Assembly (NCBI RefSeq): GCF_003056055.1
Contig: NZ_PYFP01000001.1
Location: 2,170,001-2,234,000 of the forward strand
DNA from: Glaciimonas sp. PCH181
Lineage (GTDB): Bacteria > Pseudomonadota > Gammaproteobacteria > Burkholderiales > Burkholderiaceae_D
DNA: 64,000 nt
Reading direction: 5' to 3'
A program made the position numbers and the translations under genes. How positions within the stretch are numbered: position 1 is the stretch's first letter; every line of letters starts with the position of its first letter. The notes beneath the pieces are model-generated. The model had not been told where the DNA came from and did no database searches. It saw only the letters and a list, made by a program, of their open reading frames with translations. This document shows positions 649-19,620 of the stretch, in pieces.

Positions 649-1783
649 GTTTGATCTCCGTAGACAGGCGACCAAGGATGAAATAGCCTGACAATAAAGC
701 AGCCCCCAACAGCATCAACCCAATTGATTTAATCAGCAAAGTCCATTCCAACGCGTAATAAAACCACGACAAATACCCTAACGACGCAACAATGCCAAGC
801 GACGTTAACATGTGCCGCCCACGGGCAAATCCCAGCAGCATCAACATCGCCCCCAGCACCAGCCCGATAACCCATCCGCCAAGAACAGCCAATATCAGGG
901 CAACGACCAACGCTGCGCAGCGCCGCCCAAACGTCAATGATGATGTCAACTGCAGCACCAGCGACAAAAATATCAAGCCGACCACCACCGGATCGAGCAA
1001 ATATAGCCAGCGATACAGACTATCGCCCAAACCATCAGAGCGATGATCAGCGCCGACTTCCACCAGCAAAGAATAGGGGAACCAGACCGACGTCAGCGCC
1101 AGAGAGAGCAGCGCCAGCGTCAACCCCACTGCAATCGGCAAAAATGCCTGCGGCAATCGCCTTTGCAAGTTGGACTCATCCAACCAGAATAATGCTGCCA
1201 AACCGGCGCAAATCGGCAGCGCCGGGCTAGGCCCCAGCAACATCAGGCAGCCAATATGTAATGCCAGCAATGAAAAGACCGTGCTTAGCACTCTGTGTAA
1301 AAAATTTGGCACCAGCACAATCAACAACAACTGACATAGCGCGATGCCGAAGAAAGGCCACGCGACATTGCCGCCATACGTTGCAAATAGCCAGAAACCC
1401 GCCATGCCTTGTCCGGCCAGACTGAGGGCCAGCGCAAATTGTTGCCGCAAGTCTTGCGCTGCGCCCTTTGTACTCAGTCGATAGATGAGCGCCGCGCATC
1501 CGACCAAAATCAGTCCGGCGGTGATCAAAGTGGCATCTTCGCGCATCAAATGATCGACTAAAAAAATACTAAAAAAAGCCAACAAAAATAAAGCGCCGAC
1601 GCCACCGCAAATACCTAACATCACGCGCACATACCAGGGCGAAGCCGCCGCCTCTATGACTGAGGGCGGCGCATGTTCCGCATCGACATAACCGTCTGCA
1701 TGTAGTTGTTGCCATAGCAAAGATGGTCCCTCACGCGCAACGGCACTTATAGGTCCTTTTTGCAAGGTCGCTTCGTTCTTCAT
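641..1783 (-). CDS. DUF4401-domain integral membrane protein
   Basis: 380 residues from the ATG at 1783. That start makes an ATGA overlap with the stop of the DUF2157 gene (1780-1783), the usual sign of translational coupling, and is preferred over upstream in-frame codons. A soluble N-terminal stretch of about 60 residues is followed by roughly ten hydrophobic segments running nearly to the C terminus. It belongs to the DUF4401 family by its overall pattern and its position between DUF2157 and GDYXXLXY genes. No catalytic motif is visible and the role is unknown. A channel or scaffold in the inner membrane is the most that can be inferred. Confidence 0.8.
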   Translation of the reverse strand: MKNEATLQKGPISAVAREGPSLLWQQLHADGYVDAEHAPPSVIEAAASPWYVRVMLGICGGVGALFLLAFFSIFLVDHLMREDATLITAGLILVGCAALIYRLSTKGAAQDLRQQFALALSLAGQGMAGFWLFATYGGNVAWPFFGIALCQLLLIVLVPNFLHRVLSTVFSLLALHIGCLMLLGPSPALPICAGLAALFWLDESNLQRRLPQAFLPIAVGLTLALLSLALTSVWFPYSLLVEVGADHRSDGLGDSLYRWLYLLDPVVVGLIFLSLVLQLTSSLTFGRRCAALVVALILAVLGGWVIGLVLGAMLMLLGFARGRHMLTSLGIVASLGYLSWFYYALEWTLLIKSIGLMLLGAALLSGYFILGRLSTEIKHA

Positions 1784-2874
1784 GCCAAGCCTTCTTTTTG
1801 CCATCCACGTTGCAGGTTGCGCAACCACAGCGCCGCAGCAGTAGACGCGCTGACTAAAAACAAACCAACAATCATGAAGCCGACAAGCCAGTTAAACCCG
1901 CCGGAAAAAAACATGACAATCAATTGCGCTGCGCCTATCGTGATCAATGCCAGACAACTGCCCGTCAATAGCAATAAATCGCGACGCCTGCGATATAGCA
2001 AGAAAAATCCTGCCAACACGACCAGCATCGCGATAGAACTTACGCGCGGCATGATTGAGCGATCAGCGAAGTATTTCGGCAAAATAATGAACGATAAAAT
2101 ACCGACCGTCAGCACCGCCAACAAAAGCAATCCGGCGAAACGAATAAAGTGGCGATATCTGTTGAGATTGGCTGCAACTTCTGACCGCGGATGGCTACGA
2201 TGCAAGATGATTTCCGCACCTCCCCATACCACCAGATTGAGTCCAAATAGCGACAATGGCAAACGGTTACCAAGCTCCAGCAGATCGAAAAATCCGAGCG
2301 TTACGCGCTCCAGATAAAGCAGTAATCCCAGATTCAGCAACCCTAACCAAAGACACCACGCCGTATTAAGCCGTGAGACGAGTACCCACGGAAAAATCAA
2401 AATACTCCATGTCACAAATAGTTGATAAGGGTCGGCACCGGTTTGATAGGTCTGACCGAAATAGGCCAGCAATGCGCCGCATAACAGCATCGCCGCCAGC
2501 AAAGCGACCTGTCCCTTCAAAGTGTCGAGCGTGAAATGGCGGGCTAGCAATGCAGCGATAATCAAAACGCCTTGCAGCAAACTAAATTTAGCGATGCGCG
2601 GCAATGCCTGCCAGTTAAACGCGAAGAAAAATATCACGCCAGCGACCAGAAACAAGGCGCCGCTAAACAAAAAAACGGTCGTCAGAAACCGCTTCCAATC
2701 TGCGCTGGTCGGCAAATCCCCCGACAACTGCAATGCGCGTTCGGCGGCGCTAGGCGATAGCTGCTTTTCTTGCAGCCAATGCGTAATCACCGGACGTAAC
2801 GATGACGCGACGGGCGACTGGCTAGCTAAAGGCGTTTGTTCACTCTGACCCGCTAACGGCATCATCACTTCCAT
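1780..2874 (-). CDS. DUF2157-domain integral membrane protein
   Basis: 364 residues. The N-terminal 60 or so residues are soluble and contain a short helical region (around HWLQEKQLSP), typical of the DUF2157 head. About ten membrane segments follow. The ATG at 2874 overlaps the end of the MFS-acyltransferase gene by 10 nt; a second ATG three codons later is also possible. With its two downstream neighbours it forms the DUF2157-DUF4401-GDYXXLXY cassette. Function is unknown. Coupling to an upstream lysophospholipid-handling gene hints at an envelope role, but that is inference from position only. Confidence 0.8.
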   Translation of the reverse strand: MEVMMPLAGQSEQTPLASQSPVASSLRPVITHWLQEKQLSPSAAERALQLSGDLPTSADWKRFLTTVFLFSGALFLVAGVIFFFAFNWQALPRIAKFSLLQGVLIIAALLARHFTLDTLKGQVALLAAMLLCGALLAYFGQTYQTGADPYQLFVTWSILIFPWVLVSRLNTAWCLWLGLLNLGLLLYLERVTLGFFDLLELGNRLPLSLFGLNLVVWGGAEIILHRSHPRSEVAANLNRYRHFIRFAGLLLLAVLTVGILSFIILPKYFADRSIMPRVSSIAMLVVLAGFFLLYRRRRDLLLLTGSCLALITIGAAQLIVMFFSGGFNWLVGFMIVGLFLVSASTAAALWLRNLQRGWQKEGLA

Positions 2875-4760
2875 TCACCGCGTAAATCCTGAACTCTCTG
2901 CTGTAAGTATTCCGGCGTTGCATCCGCTGGGGCGACCGATTTCCCTACGGCCAACTCCAGCACCGATAGCGGTCCACGTCTGAATGAGCGGCCAAAAGGA
3001 TTGCCATCGCTATGCGTCAACATGCTGCCCCAGAGACCCCGCAATGCCATCGGAATAACCGGCACTGGCGTGCGCTCGACAATCTTTTTGATTCCACTGC
3101 GGAAAGCGCTAATGTCACCGTTAACCGTCAATTTTCCTTCTGGGAAGATACACACCAAATCGCCATCTTCCAGCGCCGCCGCGATGTCGGCAAAGCCTTT
3201 TTCCATCAACGCAGGATTTTCTTTCGCTGTAGCAATCGGGATGGCTTTGCTGTTTCTAAACAACCACGCCAGCACAGGTATCTTAAAAATTCGGTGATCC
3301 ATGACAAACCGGATCGGTCGAGGGCTAGCTGCCATGATGACGATCGCATCGACGTAGCTGACGTGATTGCACACCAGCACCGCAGCGCCTGTTTCTGGAA
3401 TTCTGCTGATATCAACTGTCCGGATGCGGTGAATGGTATGTATCAATATCCAGGCCATAAACCGCACCAGATATTCTGGTACGACGGAGAAAATATAGAT
3501 GGCGACGATGGCGTTCAGAATTGCCGTGACCATAAAAATCTGCGGAATCGTAAGGCCCATTTTTAGCAACACCATCGCCACCAACGCAGCGACCACCATG
3601 AACAAAGCGTTCATGATATTCATCCCGGCAATCGTGCGCGACAGATGCGCAGGATCGGAACGGGTCTGAATGACGGCGAATAACGGAACGATATACAAAC
3701 CTCCGAATAAGCCGATCATTAGGCAGGCAAACAAAATTCGTCCGCTACCGTGCTGCGCAAAAAAGCCTAAAAAATCCACCATCGTCGTGTTGGTATAGCT
3801 TTGACTTGCCAGAAACAACTCAACTCCAAATACCGACAACCCAATCGCCCCAAACGGGACTAGTCCAATTTCCACTTTGTGGCCCGATAGGCGTTCACAC
3901 AGCAGCGATCCGACACCGACGCCGAGTGAAAATATCGTCAGCAAGAGAACAAAAACACTGTGATCGCCGTGTAGATAGTTTTTTGCGTAGAGGGGAAACT
4001 GGGCCAGCATAATGGCACCATAAAACCAGAACCAGGAATTGCCTAACATTGCCAGAAATACTGGCCGATTTTGGCGCGAGAAACGTAGATTTCGGGCAGT
4101 TTCAGTAATCGGATTCCAATTGATTTTTAAAGTTGGTTCGGGTGCGGGTGTTAGGGGTATGCCACGGCTAAAAAACCAGCCAACGATGGCGATAAAAATC
4201 GTGCCGCCTGCAACCAATTCGATTCCCCATGGTTTGTGTACGACTAACACGGCGCCTAGAATTTCGCCGAGCAGAATGCCGACGAAAGTACCCATTTCGA
4301 TCACGCCATTGCCACCGATCAGTTCGTCTTTGTGTAGTTGTTGCGGGAGATAGGCGTATTTCACCGGGCCGAATAGGGTTGAATGTAGTCCCGTGCCGAC
4401 TACTGCGGCAATCAGCAGCCAGAGGGTGTGCGTCATCCAACCTAGCGCTGCCATTGACATGATGGCGATTTCCAGCACTTTTACGTAACGGGCAATGCGG
4501 GATTTTTCGAATTTGTCGGCGAATTGGCCGGATGTCGCGGAGAACAATACGAATGGCAATATAAACAAACCGGGAATCAGATTATTCAGGAAGCCGGGGT
4601 CCATTGTGGTCCAGCTTAGTGCGTCATAGGTCAGGATTGTTAACAGTGCTGTCTTGAAGACATTGTCGTTGAAAGCGCCGAAAAATTGCGTCCAGAAAAA
4701 TGGCGCGAAGCGGCGTTGGCGCAGGAGCGAGAATTGATTTGGTCGGCTGGATGGTTGCAT
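2865..4760 (-). CDS. fused lysophospholipid transporter (LplT-like MFS) and PlsC-type acyltransferase
   Basis: 631 residues. Residues 1 to about 425 are a major-facilitator domain of the LplT type (FFGAFNDNVFKTAL near the N terminus). Residues about 430-631 are a PlsC/LPLAT acyltransferase with the catalytic HX4D motif in NHVSYVDA, a later FPEG motif and a VPVIPMALRG block. In E. coli, LplT flips lysophospholipid and the separate Aas protein re-acylates it. Here flippase and acyltransferase are one polypeptide, and no acyl-ACP synthetase domain is present, so activated acyl chains must come from elsewhere. First gene of the four-gene overlapping operon. Codons near its 5' end are unusually rich in plus-strand G/T (see the hairpin at 4853-4929). 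Confidence 0.88.
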   Translation of the reverse strand: MQPSSRPNQFSLLRQRRFAPFFWTQFFGAFNDNVFKTALLTILTYDALSWTTMDPGFLNNLIPGLFILPFVLFSATSGQFADKFEKSRIARYVKVLEIAIMSMAALGWMTHTLWLLIAAVVGTGLHSTLFGPVKYAYLPQQLHKDELIGGNGVIEMGTFVGILLGEILGAVLVVHKPWGIELVAGGTIFIAIVGWFFSRGIPLTPAPEPTLKINWNPITETARNLRFSRQNRPVFLAMLGNSWFWFYGAIMLAQFPLYAKNYLHGDHSVFVLLLTIFSLGVGVGSLLCERLSGHKVEIGLVPFGAIGLSVFGVELFLASQSYTNTTMVDFLGFFAQHGSGRILFACLMIGLFGGLYIVPLFAVIQTRSDPAHLSRTIAGMNIMNALFMVVAALVAMVLLKMGLTIPQIFMVTAILNAIVAIYIFSVVPEYLVRFMAWILIHTIHRIRTVDISRIPETGAAVLVCNHVSYVDAIVIMAASPRPIRFVMDHRIFKIPVLAWLFRNSKAIPIATAKENPALMEKGFADIAAALEDGDLVCIFPEGKLTVNGDISAFRSGIKKIVERTPVPVIPMALRGLWGSMLTHSDGNPFGRSFRRGPLSVLELAVGKSVAPADATPEYLQQRVQDLRGEWK

Positions 4761-4852
4761 GAGGGTCGGGGTGGGGAGATTACGACGTTGGCAATTGTAC
4801 GAGAAAAGAGGGTGGATTTTGGTTTGTTTGGTGTAGTTCGGTTTGTTTGTAA

Positions 4853-4929
4853 TTGAAACGGTTTGTGCTCCGTAGAGGCTTTGTCGGAGGTAGCCCGATA
4901 AAGCCTCTACGGAGAAAAACCCGTTTCAA
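4853..4929. repeat. interspersed hairpin element, copy 1 (REP-like)
   Basis: Long imperfect inverted repeat. The core arms 4868-4882 and 4900-4914 are perfect over 15 bp (CTCCGTAGAGGCTTT and its complement), and the match extends imperfectly outward to TTGAAACGG at the left and CCGTTTCAA at the right. The flank CGGTTTGTGCTCCGT (4859-4873) occurs again, inverted, in copy 2 at 16941-16955. The stem pair A-T after CTCCGT is T-A in copy 2. The element lies between the 5' end of the MFS-acyltransferase gene and the 3' end of the CBS gene. It marks a change from G/T-rich to A/C-rich plus strand. No transposase is nearby. Confidence 0.8.
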
Positions 4930-4961
4930 CTAACAACAACCCTAACCAACGCAACATATAT

Positions 4962-5000
4962 AAAAAAACCGCTCACAGCAAATATTTGCCACAAACGGTC
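4962..5000 (-). terminator. probable terminator of the CBS-protein gene
   Basis: Read on the minus strand, a stem formed by the perfect palindrome GCAAATATTTGC (4978-4989), with weak outer ACCG/CGGT pairing, is followed by a run of seven T (A-run at 4962-4968). The stem is irregular, so this is only a probable terminator. Confidence 0.4.
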
Positions 5001-5051
5001 TTAATCTCAGCACTCCCCCAGCAAACATCGCACCACCACAAAAAAACCGAC

Positions 5052-5507
5052 TTAATCGTCTGGCGATGCGCTACTAGAAGGCCAATCCCGAATATACGCC
5101 TTCAACATCTTATTCTCAAACCCCTGCGCATCCAAAACAGCCTTAGCAACATCATAAAACGACATCACACCAAGCAACGTTTTAGCATCCATTACAGGCA
5201 CATACCGCGCATGGCGTTCCAGCATAATCCGCCGTACTTCATTAACCTCAGTATCCGGCGTAATCGTAATCGGACTATCGTCCATATGCTTACGAACAGT
5301 GTTAGTCCCCACCACCCCACCATTCTCATGCACCGCCTTCAACACCTCACGGAAAGTCAACATCCCGACCAACGTGCCAAATTCCATTACGACCAGCGAC
5401 CCGATATCTTTTTCGGCCATCACATTCGTAGCGTCTAATAGCGGCGTTTCCGGTGTCACCGTATAGAGGATGTTGCCTTTGACTTTAAGTATCTCAGAAA
5501 CTTTCAT
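5052..5507 (-). CDS. two-CBS-domain protein
   Basis: 151 residues made almost entirely of two CBS motifs, about residues 5-60 (containing IGSLVVMEFGTLVGMLTFRE) and about 72-130 (containing RYVPVMDAKTLLGVMSFYD), plus a short acidic tail. CBS pairs bind adenine nucleotides and usually sense energy charge or regulate a partner enzyme. The stand-alone form gives no partner. The ATG at 5507 has an AGGA eight bases upstream. It is divergent from metY with a 179-bp shared promoter region. The 3' half is strongly A/C-rich on the plus strand, as part of the composition switch centred on the hairpin at 4853-4929. Confidence 0.85.
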   Translation of the reverse strand: MKVSEILKVKGNILYTVTPETPLLDATNVMAEKDIGSLVVMEFGTLVGMLTFREVLKAVHENGGVVGTNTVRKHMDDSPITITPDTEVNEVRRIMLERHARYVPVMDAKTLLGVMSFYDVAKAVLDAQGFENKMLKAYIRDWPSSSASPDD

Positions 5508-13891: not shown

Positions 13892-15454
13892 ATGTCGATC
13901 ACACAAAAATCTCGTCTGACCTCAACACTTCTTGCGATGCCCCTTTTGTGCTGCACGTTACTGTGTCTGCTTGCGCCAGTGAGCGCAATAGCGGCCTCAA
14001 CTATGCAGCCATTATCGGACAATGAAAAAGCGCTGCATGTGCTGAACCGACTTGCCTATGGCCCACGTCCGGGCGATATCGAGGCGGTCCAACAAATTGG
14101 CGTCAAACACTATATCGATCAACAGCTGAATCCCGATAGCATTCCGCTGCCGCCATCGTTAGTCGTCCAGCTTGCCGATTTGCCTAGCTATCAACTCTCG
14201 ACAACGCAGTTGTATCAACAATATGGCCCACCCTCTTTCCCGCCCAACACTGCAACACCGGAAGAAAAAAATCTCGCCCGCCAGCGTGCCAACAACGAAA
14301 TCACGCTGCAAACGCATGAAGCCCGGCTCTGGCAAGCGACCGAAAGTCCACGTCAATTGCAGGAAGTCATGACCGAATTCTGGTTCAATCACTTCAACGT
14401 TTTTGAAGGAAAAGAATGGGTCAGATATTGGAACGGTGAATATGAAAAAAATGTTCTGCGCCCCAACGCGCTCGGTAATTTCCGCCAGCTTTTGGGTTCG
14501 GTCGCGCATCATCCCGCGATGCTGTATTACCTCGATAACTGGCTAAGCAGCGGCGTCAACACGCAAGAAGCCAAAGGTCGCTTCAAAGGCTTAAACGAAA
14601 ATTATGGCCGTGAACTGCTTGAGCTCCATACGCTCGGCGTGAATGGCGGTTATACCCAAGCGGATGTCATCGCACTGGCGCGCATATTAAGTGGCTGGAC
14701 CATCAATGTAAAAGACATGAAAAACGGTGGCGGTGGCGGTGGCGAGCAACCAACCTTCATTTTTAATCCACGTCGTCATGATACTGGCGACAAAGTTTTC
14801 CTCGGCCAGACGATCAAAGGTCTTGCTGGTCCTGCTGGCGAACAAGAAGGTGAACAAGCACTCGACATCGTCGCCCGGCAACCGGCTACAGCGCGTTTTG
14901 TCTCCACAAAATTAGTACAGTATTTTGTCAGCGACAAACCCGATCCGGTGCTGGTCGAAAAAATGGCGCAACGTTTTTTAAGCAGCAATGGCGATATCAA
15001 AGCGGTACTGCGTACTTTATTCGATAGTCAGCAATTCTGGTCTCGCGCTAATTATCAAACCCAATTTAAAACGCCATATCAGTTTGTAGTTTCGGCCTTG
15101 CGTGCCAGCGCAATCCCGGTCGTGAATGTCAAATCAGTCGATAACGCGTTGAATCAGCTCGGCCAGCCTTTATATGGCTGGCTGACGCCTGAAGGGTATA
15201 AATTCTCAGAAGAAGCATGGCTGAATCCAGATGGGCTACTACGCCGGATTAATTTTTCCAGCAGCTTGAGCAATGGTAAATCGCCGATTAGTATGGCCGC
15301 CCCGCCCGCAACTTTCGCCGCGTTAGATCCACAGCAGTTGATTAAAACACTGTCGCCGATGCTAAACCCAACCAGTACCGACACCATCGCAAAAGCACCG
15401 CCCAATTTGCAAGCCAGCATGATTTTGGGTGGTCCTGATTTTATGAAAAGGTAA
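13892..15454 (+). CDS. DUF1800-domain secreted protein
   Basis: 520 residues with a signal peptide (hydrophobic run around residues 12-32, cleavage near AIAAS). The N-terminal ALHVLNRLAYGPRPGDIE, the central LMTEFWFNHFNVF-like segment, and NYGRELLELHTLGVNGGYTQ define DUF1800. The gene is followed 17 bp later by a DUF1501 gene; the two families almost always occur as a pair, and the pair is exported. Its biochemical role is not established. A run of glycines (about residues 275-282) lies in a loop. The Shine-Dalgarno is weak. It is co-transcribed with the DUF1501 gene. Confidence 0.88.
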   Translation: MSITQKSRLTSTLLAMPLLCCTLLCLLAPVSAIAASTMQPLSDNEKALHVLNRLAYGPRPGDIEAVQQIGVKHYIDQQLNPDSIPLPPSLVVQLADLPSYQLSTTQLYQQYGPPSFPPNTATPEEKNLARQRANNEITLQTHEARLWQATESPRQLQEVMTEFWFNHFNVFEGKEWVRYWNGEYEKNVLRPNALGNFRQLLGSVAHHPAMLYYLDNWLSSGVNTQEAKGRFKGLNENYGRELLELHTLGVNGGYTQADVIALARILSGWTINVKDMKNGGGGGGEQPTFIFNPRRHDTGDKVFLGQTIKGLAGPAGEQEGEQALDIVARQPATARFVSTKLVQYFVSDKPDPVLVEKMAQRFLSSNGDIKAVLRTLFDSQQFWSRANYQTQFKTPYQFVVSALRASAIPVVNVKSVDNALNQLGQPLYGWLTPEGYKFSEEAWLNPDGLLRRINFSSSLSNGKSPISMAAPPATFAALDPQQLIKTLSPMLNPTSTDTIAKAPPNLQASMILGGPDFMKR

Positions 15455-15471
15455 GCCATGAAAGCAATATC

Positions 15472-16809
15472 ATGAAGCGCCGCGATTTTATCCGCAATAT
15501 GCGCAATCTTGGGCTCATTGGAAGCGGTGCGATTCTGATTCCGGTGGGATTGTCTGGCTGTGTGGTCGCCCCGACTACCAAGCCTAACGCAGCCACGCGA
15601 CCGATGGGCGGAAATGCCGATGCACCGCTCGCTTATGGCACACCGTTAAAACGTGCGCGTCTGGCGGGTGATGGCACGCCGCGCATGATTGTAGTGTTTC
15701 TGCGCGGTGCGGTGGATGGTTTAAATGTCGTCGTTCCGCATGGCGATCATCATTATTATCAAGCGCGTCCGACGATTGCCGTGGCACGTCCGGGGGCGAA
15801 CAATGGGGCGATTGACCTGACCGGTTATTTCGGTCTGCATCCAGCCTTACAGCCGCTGAAAGCCTATTGGGATAATGGTCAGTTGGCTTTTATTCATGCG
15901 TCTGGCTCACCGGATATGTCGCGCTCGCATTTCGAGGCGCAAGATTATATGGAAACGGGCACGCCCGGCCAGCACAACACTGCCGATGGGTGGATGAATC
16001 GTTTGCTGACGACGATGCCAGCGAGTGAAGCGCCTATGCAGGCGTTGACGCTGGGCGAATCGGTGCCGCGGATTCTGACTGGCAAAGCGGTGGTCGCGAA
16101 TATGTCTACCGGACGCAATGCGACGCGGCCGACGCAGATTGATCGGCCGGATATTAATGTGGCTTTTAATGCGTTGTATCAGCAGGATCCGACTTTGGGG
16201 AAAGCTTTTCGGGATGGCATGGCGGCGCGCAAAGAGATGTTGATGGATCTGACTAGCACGGAGCAACGGGCGGCGAATAATGGCGCGGCGCTGCCAAATG
16301 GGTTATCGATTGATACTACTCGGTTGGGGCAATTGATGCGGAGCAATCCGGCGATTCGGTTGGGGTTTGTCGCTGTGGGTGGGTGGGATACGCATGCCAA
16401 TCAGGGGAATGGTGCGGGCCAGTTAGCTAATCGGTTGCGGCCGCTGGCGGATGGGTTGACGGCGTTGGCACGAGAACTTGGTCCGGCGTTTAACGATACG
16501 GTGATTGTTGTGATGTCGGAGTTTGGGAGGACTTTTCGGGAAAATGGTAATGGGGGGACTGACCATGGGCATGGCAATGCTATGTGGCTGCTGGGAGGTA
16601 ATGTTCGGGGAGGGGCTATTTATGGGCATTGGCCGGGGATAGATGATAAGTCGCTTAATGAAGGTCGTGACCTTGCTGTGACTACGGATTTTCGGACGGT
16701 GTTAGCGACGCTGGCCGAGAAACATATGCGGGTTGGGGATGCTGCGTTGCAGAAAGTGTTTCCGCAATTTGCGGGGAGTGGTAATCAAAAGTTGAATTTT
16801 TTAATTTAG
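15472..16809 (+). CDS. DUF1501-domain Tat-exported protein
   Basis: 445 residues. The N terminus MKRRDFIRN is a twin-arginine signal, followed by a hydrophobic stretch and a lipobox-like GLSGC, so the protein is probably a Tat-exported lipoprotein. The body has VFLRGAVDGLNVVVPHGD, SHFEAQDYMETGT, VGGWDTHANQG and VVMSEFGRTFRENGNGGTDHGHGNAMWLLG, the sulfatase/alkaline-phosphatase-like core of DUF1501. Partner of the upstream DUF1800 protein. Its last kilobase uses codons ending in G/T far more than its neighbours (16501-16560 on the sense strand: 25 G, 19 T, 12 A, 4 C). This belongs to the composition switch centred on the hairpin near 16924 and is not obviously a sign of transfer. Confidence 0.88.
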   Translation: MKRRDFIRNMRNLGLIGSGAILIPVGLSGCVVAPTTKPNAATRPMGGNADAPLAYGTPLKRARLAGDGTPRMIVVFLRGAVDGLNVVVPHGDHHYYQARPTIAVARPGANNGAIDLTGYFGLHPALQPLKAYWDNGQLAFIHASGSPDMSRSHFEAQDYMETGTPGQHNTADGWMNRLLTTMPASEAPMQALTLGESVPRILTGKAVVANMSTGRNATRPTQIDRPDINVAFNALYQQDPTLGKAFRDGMAARKEMLMDLTSTEQRAANNGAALPNGLSIDTTRLGQLMRSNPAIRLGFVAVGGWDTHANQGNGAGQLANRLRPLADGLTALARELGPAFNDTVIVVMSEFGRTFRENGNGGTDHGHGNAMWLLGGNVRGGAIYGHWPGIDDKSLNEGRDLAVTTDFRTVLATLAEKHMRVGDAALQKVFPQFAGSGNQKLNFLI

Positions 16810-16896
16810 GATTTTTTGTAGGTTTTTTTACTAGATGCCGGCTGGTTTTGAAATTGGTTTAGGCTGTCGTTATTTAAACCGTATGAGCCTGTCGGA

Positions 16897-16955
16897 TTTT
16901 CTCCGTTGAGGCAAGCCGGGCCCGCTCCCGGCTTGCCTCAACGGAGCACAAACCG
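16897..16955. repeat. interspersed hairpin element, copy 2 (inverted relative to copy 1)
   Basis: Perfect 20-bp arms 16901-16920 and 16927-16946 (CTCCGTTGAGGCAAGCCGGG and its complement) with a six-base spacer. On the minus strand the outer flank reads CGGTTTGTGCTCCGT (16955-16941), identical over 15 nt to copy 1, and the other side has CGGAGAAAA as in copy 1. The inner stem sequence differs, but pairing is kept: GTTGAGGC/GCCTCAAC here against GTAGAGGC/GCCTCTAC in copy 1, a compensatory change. It lies between the DUF1501 gene and katE. The region 16810-17205 otherwise holds only the katE leader. Plus-strand composition switches from G/T-rich to A/C-rich across it. Confidence 0.82.
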
Positions 16956-17205
16956 TTGCAATTACCTACAGAAGTTAAACCTTCCCCAAAAGAAATCCCC
17001 CTCCCTTTCCTACATAGAAATCAGGTTTCTTCTGATATCCATTTCCCTCAAAACGTCTAAGCTGCTTTGACCGATCAGCGTTCAACATCTCAAATAAGCG
17101 AACTGAACGCACCGACGGCAACAACAACGTCGGTCGGCTGCATCCGCAATGCCAGCATCACTTGCACTCCCCTCATTCCCAAACATAACAATGCGAGGTC
17201 TCCCC

Positions 17206-19620
17206 ATGGCAACACGCAAAAAAACCCCATCCGCGATTGATGGTGCAGGATCTGTTTTAAGCACAGTCTCAGGGCCCTCCAATGCAGCGCCCCCAGACAG
17301 CATGGGAACTAAAGAAATTGCCCCCACGCAACTGTTAGAAAAAGTAGTCGGCGGCCAGGCCCTCTCCGCCCAAATGCCTCACAACCCCACCAAAGCCAGC
17401 GAATACGGCGACACCAGTCCCACCCCCGAACCCGGCGCAACTGGCAAACCCGCCACCGAATTAGCCACAGCCAGCACCGCAACCGAAACCAACGCATCAC
17501 CCAAAGTAGGCGACGGCCAACCAATCATCGGCGGAAACCCTACCGTCGGCCCACTCGACCGCGTGCGCGTAGACGCCAGCGACCAAACCCTCACCACCAA
17601 CCAAGGCGTCCAAGTCGCCGACAACCAAAGTTCGCTAAAGGTCGGACTGCGCGGCCCAACCGCAATGGAAGACTTCATCCTGCGCGAAAAAATTTCCCAC
17701 TTCGATCATGAACGCATTCCCGAACGCGTCGTCCATGCAAGAGGTTCCGCAGCCCACGGCTATTTCGAATCCTACAAAGATTTAAGTGAACTGACCCGCG
17801 CCGCGCCGTTCGCCCAAGCTGGCAAACGCACGCCCGTTTTCGTACGCTTTTCCACCGTCGCAGGCGAACGTGGATCAGCCGACACCGTGCGCGACGTACG
17901 CGGTTTTGCGGTCAAGTTTTATACTGACGAAGGCAACTGGGATCTGGTCGGGAATAACATGCCGGTCTTTTTCATTCAGGATGCAATGAAATTTCCTGAC
18001 TTGATTCATGCCGTCAAACCGGAAGCCCATAACGCCATTCCCCAAGCCTCCAGCGCACACGATACCTTTTGGGATTTTGTCTCGTTAACCCCCGAATCAA
18101 CACATATGCTGATGTGGCTAATGTCCGATCGGGCGATCCCACGTAGTCTGCGGATGATGCAAGGTTTTGGCGTGCATACGTTCCGGCTGGTCAATACCGA
18201 GGGCGAGTCGATGTTCTGCAAATTCCACTGGCATCCCGTCGCCGGAACGCACTCTCTAATCTGGGATGAGGCGGTAAAGATCGCAGGCGCCGACTGCGAT
18301 TTCCATCGGCGCGATTTATGGGAAGCAATTGAGGCTGGCGCATACCCCGAATGGGAACTCGGCCTGCAAGTTTTCAGTGAAGCAGACGCCGACAAATTTG
18401 GCTTCGACGTGCTGGACCCGACTAAACTTGTTCCTGAAGAAATGGTAGAAGTCATCCCTGTCGGTAAAATGACGCTGAATCGTAATCCTGATAATTTCTT
18501 CGCAGAAACCGAGCAAGTCGCCTTCTGCACAGCCCACGTCATACCCGGTATCGACTTCACTAATGACCCACTGCTGCAAGGTCGCATTCACTCTTATCTC
18601 GATACCCAGATCAGCCGTTTAGGCGGTCCAAATTTCCATGAAATCCCGATCAACTCTCCCGTCGCTGGGGTCTACAACAATCAGCGCGATGGCATGCATC
18701 GGCAGGCTATTCACCGTGGCCGCGCCAGCTACGAACCAAACTCGCTAGGAGGTGGTTGTCCATTTCAGGCTGGCACACAGGGCTACACCAGTTTCCCACA
18801 GCAAATTGCGGCCGATATGGTGCGCGGAAAACCGGAACTATTCGCCGATCATTACTCGCAAGCACGCTTGTTTTGGAACAGCCAAAGCCCTGCCGAGCAA
18901 GGCCATATCGCCTCGGCATTTCGCTTTGAGCTGACCCGCGTGCAAACCCCCGCTGTGCGTATTCGAGTGCTATCCATGCTGGTCAATGTCGACCCGTTGC
19001 TTGCTGCGGATGTGGCGCAGGGATTGGGGCTGGAAATTCCTCCGGCAATGCCGCTGGCATCTGATTTGCTCATGCCAGAATATGCGCCCTCACCCACGCT
19101 TTCAATAATGTTTCGTCCGGGCGAAACCGGCATCCGCACGCGTCGTGTCGCGGTGTTGGTTGCCTCTGGCGTTGATGGCGCAACGGTGCAAGCGATCTAC
19201 GCTTCATTACTGACCGACGGCGCGGTGCCACGCTTAGTGGGCGCACAGCTCGGCAAGGTCGCCACTAGCGATGGCGGTTCACTCGATGTGGAAATATCGC
19301 TGGAAGCCGCACCGTCAGCGCTGTATGACGCGGTAGTCGTGCCGGACTGTTCCGCGACGACAACTGGATGGTTGCGCAACAATCAGGCGCTGGATTTCTT
19401 GCGAGATCAATACCGGCATTGCAAGCCAATGCTGATGTTTGAAAGCGGCGCAGCGTTGCTTGAAAAAGCGGGCATTACGATTGCACCAGAACAAGCCGAT
19501 CCCGGCGTGATTGATACTGAGAATAAAACCTTGGAGCGTGCATTGGCGGCATTCAAATCAGCGCTGGCAGGACATCGCATGCTGATGCGTGAAACCGATC
19601 CGCAGCCAATGCCCGAATGA
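17206..19620 (+). CDS. katE: large-subunit catalase HPII
   Basis: 804 residues from the ATG at 17206 (GAGG eight bases upstream); in-frame ATGs at 17149 and 17191 are less likely. A low-complexity Ala/Pro/Thr-rich N-terminal extension of about 150 residues precedes the catalase core. Active-site His177 is in [13 protein letters not shown], Asn250 in [11 protein letters not shown], and the proximal haem ligand Tyr464 in [16 protein letters not shown]. The C-terminal 150 residues form the flavodoxin/GATase-like domain of clade-2 catalases ([12 protein letters not shown]). It decomposes hydrogen peroxide in the cytoplasm, usually in stationary phase. The E. coli protein is 753 residues; the extra length is all N-terminal, and that part is strikingly C/A-rich in DNA. 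A hemerythrin gene follows 41 bp downstream. Confidence 0.95.

Follow-up and report, generated by a model that had tools for sequence, protein, structure and literature searches.

The window analysed here is a stretch of 64,000 nucleotides of contig 1 (2170001-2234000) of the soil bacterium Glaciimonas sp. PCH181, whose genome (G000 below) comprises 5.3 Mb in six contigs, and our subject is a short hairpin-forming element, present in the window as two copies, around which the base composition of the two DNA strands switches. Copy 2 is located between a DUF1501 gene and a katE-type catalase gene, both on the + strand (gene calls throughout follow a longest-open-reading-frame (ORF) rule). Expressed as keto skew, (G+T-A-C)/n on the + strand, composition changes at copy 2 (16902) from +0.32 to the left to -0.23 to the right, and at copy 1 (4893) from approximately +0.22 to -0.33, in flanks of 400 bases; the step score, left minus right skew over 400 bases each, is 0.55 at both hairpins. 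A preliminary description of this DNA had reported a strand-composition switch centred on the copy 2 hairpin with normal composition beyond it. The three base counts that it quoted are exact, the switch is real (a step of 0.55 against a background standard deviation of 0.087) and composition is indeed normal before ~15530 and after ~17820; the left footprint begins at ~15530 and is patchy up to 16030. What had been missed is that the hairpin, for which the surrounding 91 nt have a fold energy of -48.7 kcal/mol versus -24.5 for shuffled sequences, belongs to a larger, dispersed element that has terminal repeats.

The directional footprint proved to be general, and its source can be narrowed to this one element family. 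The terminal repeat, defined as 21 bases (TTGAAACGGTTTGTGCTCCGT) with up to three mismatches allowed, has 41 matches at 34 loci in G000. Over 500 bases the left flank is G/T-rich at all 34 loci, the right flank is negative at 32, and the left-to-right switch exceeds 0.2 at 33. Moving outward in 250-base bins, mean skew over the 34 loci falls through 0.287, 0.208, 0.164, 0.113 and 0.039 on the left and through -0.252, -0.181, -0.140, -0.118 and -0.065 on the right, a decay over ~1-1.5 kb from the element. A 15-base motif occurs in seven exact copies in the same genome, every one strongly skewed on at least one flank (both flanks in six cases, the left alone at L004); motif copies lacking a switch, which the preliminary description had named as evidence that would count against it, were not found among them.

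Steps of this size are rare elsewhere. In a background sample of 764 kb of G000, made up of the window (itself chosen for its switch) and 35 stretches of 20 kb, the step away from elements has a mean of 0.000 and a standard deviation of 0.087 over 6999 grid positions, 0.16% of which reach 0.36. Steps that reach 0.36 number 13 in this sample, all of them left-plus/right-minus: six are at a terminal-repeat match, one is at an element remnant (L234), four (0.44-0.51) have no recognisable element and two are weak (0.36-0.38). The 12 terminal-repeat matches that fall within the sample have steps of 0.23-0.73. Scans of two other Glaciimonas species gave one left-plus step of at least 0.36 and no opposite one in 140 kb (G003) and none of either sign in 140 kb (G004), with none at an element; in other genera, 958 kb around 80 DUF1501 loci (including one from Glaciimonas soli) contained two steps that reached 0.4, both away from element matches, and no opposite ones. 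Hairpins as such do not produce the pattern. Thirty other hairpins, all with exact stems of 13 bp or more, had a mean step of 0.02 and none reached 0.36, in a comparison in which the longest of six inspected stems was 17 bp against the element's 20 and which very long hairpins lie outside. This silence identifies the element family as the source, so that the earlier attribution to a hairpin stands for the element that carries one and fails for hairpins in general (0/30).

Table 1. Features of the window discussed in the text (positions are those of the window).
Feature	Position	Strand	Remarks
DUF1501 gene	15472..16809	+	PF07394; third codon positions ~85% G/T in second half
katE-type catalase gene	17206..19620	+	PF00199, PF06628, PF18011; longest ORF from 17149, start codon at 17206 is our choice
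Element copy 2	16887..16961	-	Right-end terminal repeat 16941-16961 (minus), degenerate left-end repeat ~16893-16906, hairpin in middle
Copy 2 hairpin	16901..16946		Perfect 20-bp stem 16901-16920/16927-16946, 6-nt loop
Copy 2 left footprint	15530..16886	+	+ strand G/T-rich, peak in last 600 bases; spans most of DUF1501 gene
Copy 2 right footprint	16962..17820 (end approximate)	-	- strand G/T-rich, + strand A/C-rich; covers katE start
Element copy 1	4853..4929	+	Terminal repeats at both ends (4853-4873 +, 4909-4929 -) flanking hairpin
Copy 1 left footprint	4480..4852	+	From skew profile
Copy 1 right footprint	4930..5475	-	From skew profile

At seven loci of G000 two terminal-repeat matches face each other in inverted orientation, spanning 75-330 bp. 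Among the five genus genomes, that is G000 and four other Glaciimonas species (G001 to G004), the terminal repeat is present in four and the element block in all five (20, 10, 11, 6 and 3 matches in G000 to G004, respectively); outside the genus, one genome of 55 carries the terminal repeat, as a single match with three mismatches. In a long form from G002 (L270) each end comprises the terminal repeat, a hairpin block (around GAAGCAAGAAAAAGTGACT) and an inner block (around AACTCGCTGCGCTCAAACATG). Some one-ended copies (L260, L261, L268) have their inner block separated from the flank by repetitive DNA; that of L268 (7600-7960, reverse strand) is, by eye, a plain minisatellite with a unit of ~36 bases, and that of the other two is less regular. 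The stem arms of the two window copies (4868-4914 and 16901-16946) differ from one another, yet pair within each copy, as if the arms had been copied from each other or structure had been kept; this comparison applies to copies whose arms already agreed at 13/18 bases. Four Collimonas genomes (L063, L064, L070 and, weakly, L080 with E = 0.002) have relatives of the half-element, situated upstream of the DUF1501 match at a distance of ~3.3 kb, which suggests that the family is probably older than Glaciimonas. A search of Rfam gave nothing at gathering level, the best sub-threshold family being PK-repBA (E = 3e-5, 33 of 45 bits) followed by hairpin microRNA families, and a plasmid search with one sister element gave no match.

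The elements of the sister species are also flanked by skewed DNA. Of 27 terminal-repeat matches, 18 were fetched (17 regions), and 14 of these have convergent skew in the first 250 bases; the non-convergent matches are L151, L155, L163 and one row of L162, L155 resembling a chance match. Mean skew in the first bin is 0.185 on the left and -0.234 on the right, and in the next bin 0.005 and -0.102. The footprint therefore has its longest reach in the genome of the window.

The DUF1501-katE junction is present in both G002 and G004, where it is free of the element and shows no skew; no recognisable element was found in the compared regions of these two genomes. Taking the base common to G002 and G004 as ancestral, which is compatible with gain of the element in the window lineage and also with its loss in both sisters, we obtained substitution spectra from the five of the 34 loci for which orthologues had been retrieved (copy 1, copy 2, L014, L008 and L038), each oriented so that the element lies 3'. 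Within 400 bases of it, C>T stood at 0.180 versus 0.042 for G>A, C>G at 0.082 versus 0.004 for G>C, and A>G at 0.110 versus 0.028 for T>C. These three changes are enriched on the strand whose 3' end points toward the element, with left and right sides in agreement; they alone retain a clear bias at 800-2000 bases, a distance at which there is less saturation, and by 2-3 kb the spectra are symmetric. At four-fold degenerate sites the difference in C>G is 0.42 versus 0.03 for G>C. The footprint is thus an element-centred, strand-specific and lineage-specific substitution bias with a C>T/C>G/A>G spectrum and a distance gradient. The preliminary description had predicted C>T and A>G on exactly these strands on each side, and both were seen at the five loci; C>G, which is as strong as the transitions, had not been foreseen. 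Total change is barely raised near the element (0.149 near versus 0.143 far over all sites; 0.52 at 0-800 bases versus 0.45 at 1500-3000 at four-fold sites). The G002 and G004 lineages lean in the opposite direction near the junctions (in G002, C>T 0.053 and G>A 0.101), which we infer to result from conditioning on the skewed sequence of G000.

The DUF1501 gene illustrates how far coding sequence has been altered. Its third-position skew rises toward the element from +0.22 in the first sixth of the gene to ~+0.70 in the last three sixths, while in 18 orthologues (of the 80 loci) third-position skew ranges from -0.48 to +0.38. In the last 154 alignment codons, 38 of the 42 third-position cytosines on which the sisters agree have changed (21 C>T, 15 C>G, 2 C>A), as have seven of 12 adenines versus seven of 30 guanines or thymines. 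Third-position identity drops from 0.57 to 0.35 in comparison with G002 and from 0.55 to 0.32 with G004, and is trendless (0.31-0.59) with G003; the first two codon positions show no such drop.

A bias of this kind may be one of mutation or one of fixation. In the second case selection or conversion bias would favour G/T on the strand pointing at the element, for example if a polar DNA translocase, RecA or a Chi-like signal needed G/T, an explanation that we take seriously but regard as unlikely. With a single parameter (S ~1.5-1.8), a keto-selection model describes the 12 substitution rates about as closely as a mutation model in which three changes are added on one strand (three parameters), and near the element all six changes into G/T are up and all six into A/C are down. 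Two aspects of these fits weigh against mutation: over all sites the selection model is equal at an assumed free-site share of 0.33 and better at the other two (by 4 log units at 0.4 and 11 at 0.5), and the reduction in changes into A or C is underpredicted by the mutation model (for G>A it fits 0.12, where 0.06 is observed). When the fits are confined to four-fold sites (437 near, 792 far), which require no assumption about free sites, however, the mutation model beats the null by 85 log units and keto-selection by 5 Akaike information criterion (AIC) units, and selection fails to match C>G (0.42 seen, 0.27 fitted). Nor did any word of 5-8 bases exceed the frequency predicted from its sub-words in the 54 of 68 flanks with skew above 0.1 (largest z 4.1, for non-keto words), GCTGGTGG occurring six times and GGGNAGGG five times in 54 kb of flanks; and the bias crosses genes and intergenic DNA alike, so that weak selection would be needed on hundreds of sites in dozens of places. 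Helped by the absence of an enriched motif, we hold mutation to be the more likely cause. The extra changes near the element are spread over all neighbour contexts, and a deaminase with a sequence preference was ruled out by this rise in every context.

Transcription could leave a strand bias where convergent transcripts run into a terminator or form R-loops, and the position of the elements is in keeping with this, given that 11 of 34 lie between convergent ORFs (21 between tandem and two between divergent ones) and 32 adjoin at least one gene 3' end. The sign of the skew, however, does not follow the genes: beside + genes and - genes alike, left flanks are rich in G/T (0.51, n=19, and 0.35, n=12, respectively) and right flanks in A/C (-0.34, n=10, and -0.41, n=22), and third-position skew keeps its sign whether a gene runs toward or away from the element. 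Gene direction is therefore no explanation, as the preliminary description had argued. Convergent junctions without an element (62) have a mean step of 0.065 with none reaching 0.36, and in one class of tandem junctions 1/175 does so. There is furthermore no terminator-like site on either strand at 16887-16961, two being found at 17194-17243, and an intrinsic terminator was rejected as the identity of the copy 2 hairpin. Overall we consider a transcriptional origin very improbable.

A replicative origin, in which forks stall at the element in a polar manner and leave lagging-strand gaps on the entry side, has somewhat more in its favour but is still rather improbable. The local sign of the skew is that of a replication terminus, the leading strand of this genome being G/T-rich, and at 16 two-ended elements of contig 1 the entry side is more skewed than the exit side (0.251 versus 0.171, p = 0.02), with p = 0.016 for the seven elements of one replichore and p = 0.36 for the nine of the other. 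Yet the difference of 0.08 is about that of the replichore background (+0.049 in nine stretches, -0.033 in 15), and scars lie on both sides of elements although each site is normally replicated from one. The chromosomal ter/dif switch itself was rejected as the origin of the pattern: it lies at ~0.7-0.85 Mb of contig 1, where the flip in strand asymmetry probably marks the replication terminus, and the element switches are spread over contigs 1-3.

Copies with one recognisable end were considered separately from those with two. Elements were assigned to these classes by a terminal-repeat profile over 44 loci, trained on matches among those later scored and leaving out elements less than 800 bases from a locus end (one seen, L263 504); two sites of contig 2 (1211844 and 1213372) occur twice, and the 31 two-ended and 17 one-ended rows correspond to 30 and 16 sites. 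Of the two-ended sites, 28/30 are convergent. This is difficult to reconcile with strand-specific DNA import, in which the element would be an uptake or mobilisation signal and one strand would be re-imported as damaged single-stranded DNA: such import would give a gradient around the element and a same-strand pattern at some one-ended copies, but its effects should cancel at two-ended ones, and we give it very little credence. Where a single terminal repeat is recognisable, its side is skewed at all 16 sites; on the far side the same strand is G/T-rich in nine, and the remainder are convergent or near zero. Some of the 16 probably have a second end too worn to be recognised. Strictly outward emission of the footprint from each terminal repeat is accordingly borne out only in part by the one-ended copies, and the claim of a directional footprint, upheld by the polarised spectra on both sides, holds reliably at such copies only for the side of the repeat. 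One one-ended copy, situated before a permease-like gene, is found at the matching place in G000 and G002 (L260, L268). At a remnant consisting of the AAACATGTTTGAGCG block alone (L234 15387-15437) the two-sided switch is still strong (0.62).

We propose, with nearly even chances of being right, that recurrent opening or cutting of DNA at the element ends, followed by damage and error-prone copying, has left a mutational scar. The element would be dispersed, hairpin-forming, apparently non-coding and bounded by inward-facing terminal repeats, at which the flanking duplex would repeatedly be opened or cut. The strand with its 3' end toward the element would be left single, as when 5' ends are degraded back from a nicked or broken terminal repeat; the exposed strand would take cytosine and adenine damage, and its replication by an error-prone polymerase would yield C>T, C>G and A>G. 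Over evolutionary time the strand that points at the element would become G/T-rich on either side of it, and variation in the length of the opened tract would make the effect fade over ~1-1.5 kb. C>T and A>G fit deamination of a single strand, and C>G fits translesion copying past lost bases; a strong C>G component is, to our knowledge, unusual for bacteria. It is from this spectrum and its polarity that we infer single-strandedness as the cause, with its origin at a nick or break at the element ends. A break origin is plausible from the sequence comparisons, the strand-specific bias on both sides and its fall with distance being what is expected of break-induced mutagenesis. DnaE2 (NF004225), which scores above cut-off in five of five genus genomes, is a candidate for the polymerase used. 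In G000, dnaE2 starts beside the L038 element (C1:352178-355318, minus strand; element from ~355341, region to 355488), and its own coding DNA lies within the footprint of that element.

Several further observations weigh against this proposal. Four strong switches have no recognisable element (L235 5366, L224 1442, L014 14885 and L024 551), and the expectation in the preliminary description that every sharp switch would sit at a hairpin element, with equally strong hairpin-free switches named as evidence to the contrary, was met at terminal repeats for six of 13 and at a remnant for one, and contradicted by these four. G002 shows steps of at least 0.36 of both signs in 120 kb (four left-plus, two opposite), none of them at an element. 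The one-ended copies L260 (+0.52), L046 (+0.25) and both at L009 are G/T-rich on the same strand on both sides, and two two-ended elements, L037 in G000 and that at the L008 site of the sister G001, have skew on a single side. The other hairpins examined lack a switch, and a putative element-specific factor is consequently needed; the silence of ordinary hairpins makes a factor that recognises the element likely. SbcC (TIGR00618) is not above cut-off in any of the five genus genomes (best 24.5 bits; SbcD was not searched), and a divergent SbcC could be missed, since the model passes its cut-off in only one of 14 control genomes; failure to detect it means that the Escherichia coli route of hairpin cutting is probably not the cause. 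Finally, at L014 the left flank is already G/T-rich in the element-free sisters (+0.26 and +0.20 over 400 bases). The preliminary description had named the same skew in hairpin-free sisters as evidence against it; such skew is absent from the DUF1501-katE junction in two sisters and present at this one of the five loci.

The L014 flank would also be expected if the element inserted preferentially into ready-made composition switches. There is, however, no switch at the sister sites of copies 1 and 2, the bias over the five loci arose in the lineage of the window, and steps of at least 0.36 are rare away from elements, which together leave an insertion preference with next to no probability as the general explanation. 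Returning to recurrent strand opening at the element ends, the L014 switch at 14885 lies ~70 bases from the point at which sister-genome matches end (14813), and the flanks of the L038 element map to two distant places in three sister genomes, as might be seen at a fragile site. Element-less switches and the split L038 flanks may represent lost elements and rearrangement joints.

The closest parallel is with yeast, where mutation around inverted repeats is elevated on both sides by way of breaks, resection and Pol zeta, and where G.C>C.G changes were more frequent in a replication-defective strain (PMC3681665). Both cases involve a hairpin-forming repeat, a two-sided and distance-dependent effect, elevated G.C>C.G (in yeast, in the strain defective in replication) and a translesion polymerase, here as a candidate. 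The yeast repeats are 320 bp or 1.3 kb long in a laboratory construct with a reach of up to 8 kb (PMC3681665), whereas the elements described here are short, natural and bacterial, reach ~1 kb and have left a strand-polar footprint that is fixed in the genome. As in the asymmetry around ter/dif, the G/T-rich strand runs to the switch point from both sides, as does the leading strand of the chromosome; here, in contrast, the scale is one of kilobases, there are dozens of copies, the skew is ~6-fold stronger (0.25-0.29 versus 0.03-0.05) and it is tied to a repeat rather than to fork direction.

In being short, multi-copy and bounded by terminal inverted repeats, the elements resemble miniature inverted-repeat transposable elements (MITEs), and some copies have an internal minisatellite, as one Porphyromonas MITE is reported to have (PMC4596501). 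They differ in that no parent transposon or target duplication was identified, and the portions of the MITE literature consulted contained no description of flanking mutation scars. Among the 41 matches there is no inward-facing terminal-repeat pair 0.5-5 kb apart that could frame a transposase, although no gene-by-gene search was made; the sisters retain the flanking genes without the element, with junctions too diverged for a clean insertion point or target-site duplication. Like repetitive extragenic palindromes (REPs) and the bacterial interspersed mosaic elements (BIMEs) built from them, these are dispersed extragenic palindromes at gene ends, but with a longer modular structure and no link to a REP-associated tyrosine transposase (RAYT). 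A REP/BIME system with a RAYT was rejected: each genome has one PF01797 gene (four of five over cut-off), beside a glutamate-synthase-like gene and with no element near. Within 1.5 kb of these genes there is no block A, B or C, just an 11-base block with one mismatch in two genomes. The HxH motif of the RAYT-like gene (G000:C6:118780-119025; L185-L189) is changed in four of five species (MGNQIQLL or MGNQVQML versus MPNHFHLL in G003) with the frame still open, which suggests a non-catalytic, domesticated RAYT-like protein. Repeat-induced point mutation (RIP) in fungi, C>T in duplicated DNA at mating, leaks into the flanks of repeats. The likeness is that of repeat-directed mutation reaching the flanks; here, unlike RIP, C>G and A>G accompany C>T and the changes are strand-polar. 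No description of this element, or of such footprints in bacteria, was found in the titles and abstract openings of open-licence papers.

More broadly, it is possible, though with the chances somewhat against it, that small bacterial repeats are built-in, sequence-specific and polar sources of single-stranded DNA, a putative factor at each terminal repeat driving strand-specific hypermutation of the adjoining kilobase, reshaping codon use and leaving a fossil record of element sites and rearrangements. If so, short natural bacterial repeats would create kilobase zones of strand-specific mutation that can be read from sequence, and the whole genome would hold an in vivo record of single-stranded DNA sites, with their polarity, their length and the error spectrum of their repair; a specific repair polymerase would be suggested by the strength of the C>G component. 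The codon use of adjoining genes would have been reshaped, to the extent seen at the third positions of the DUF1501 gene (~85% G/T), and it would become possible to test whether mobile repeats set the local mutation rates and codon use of neighbouring genes.

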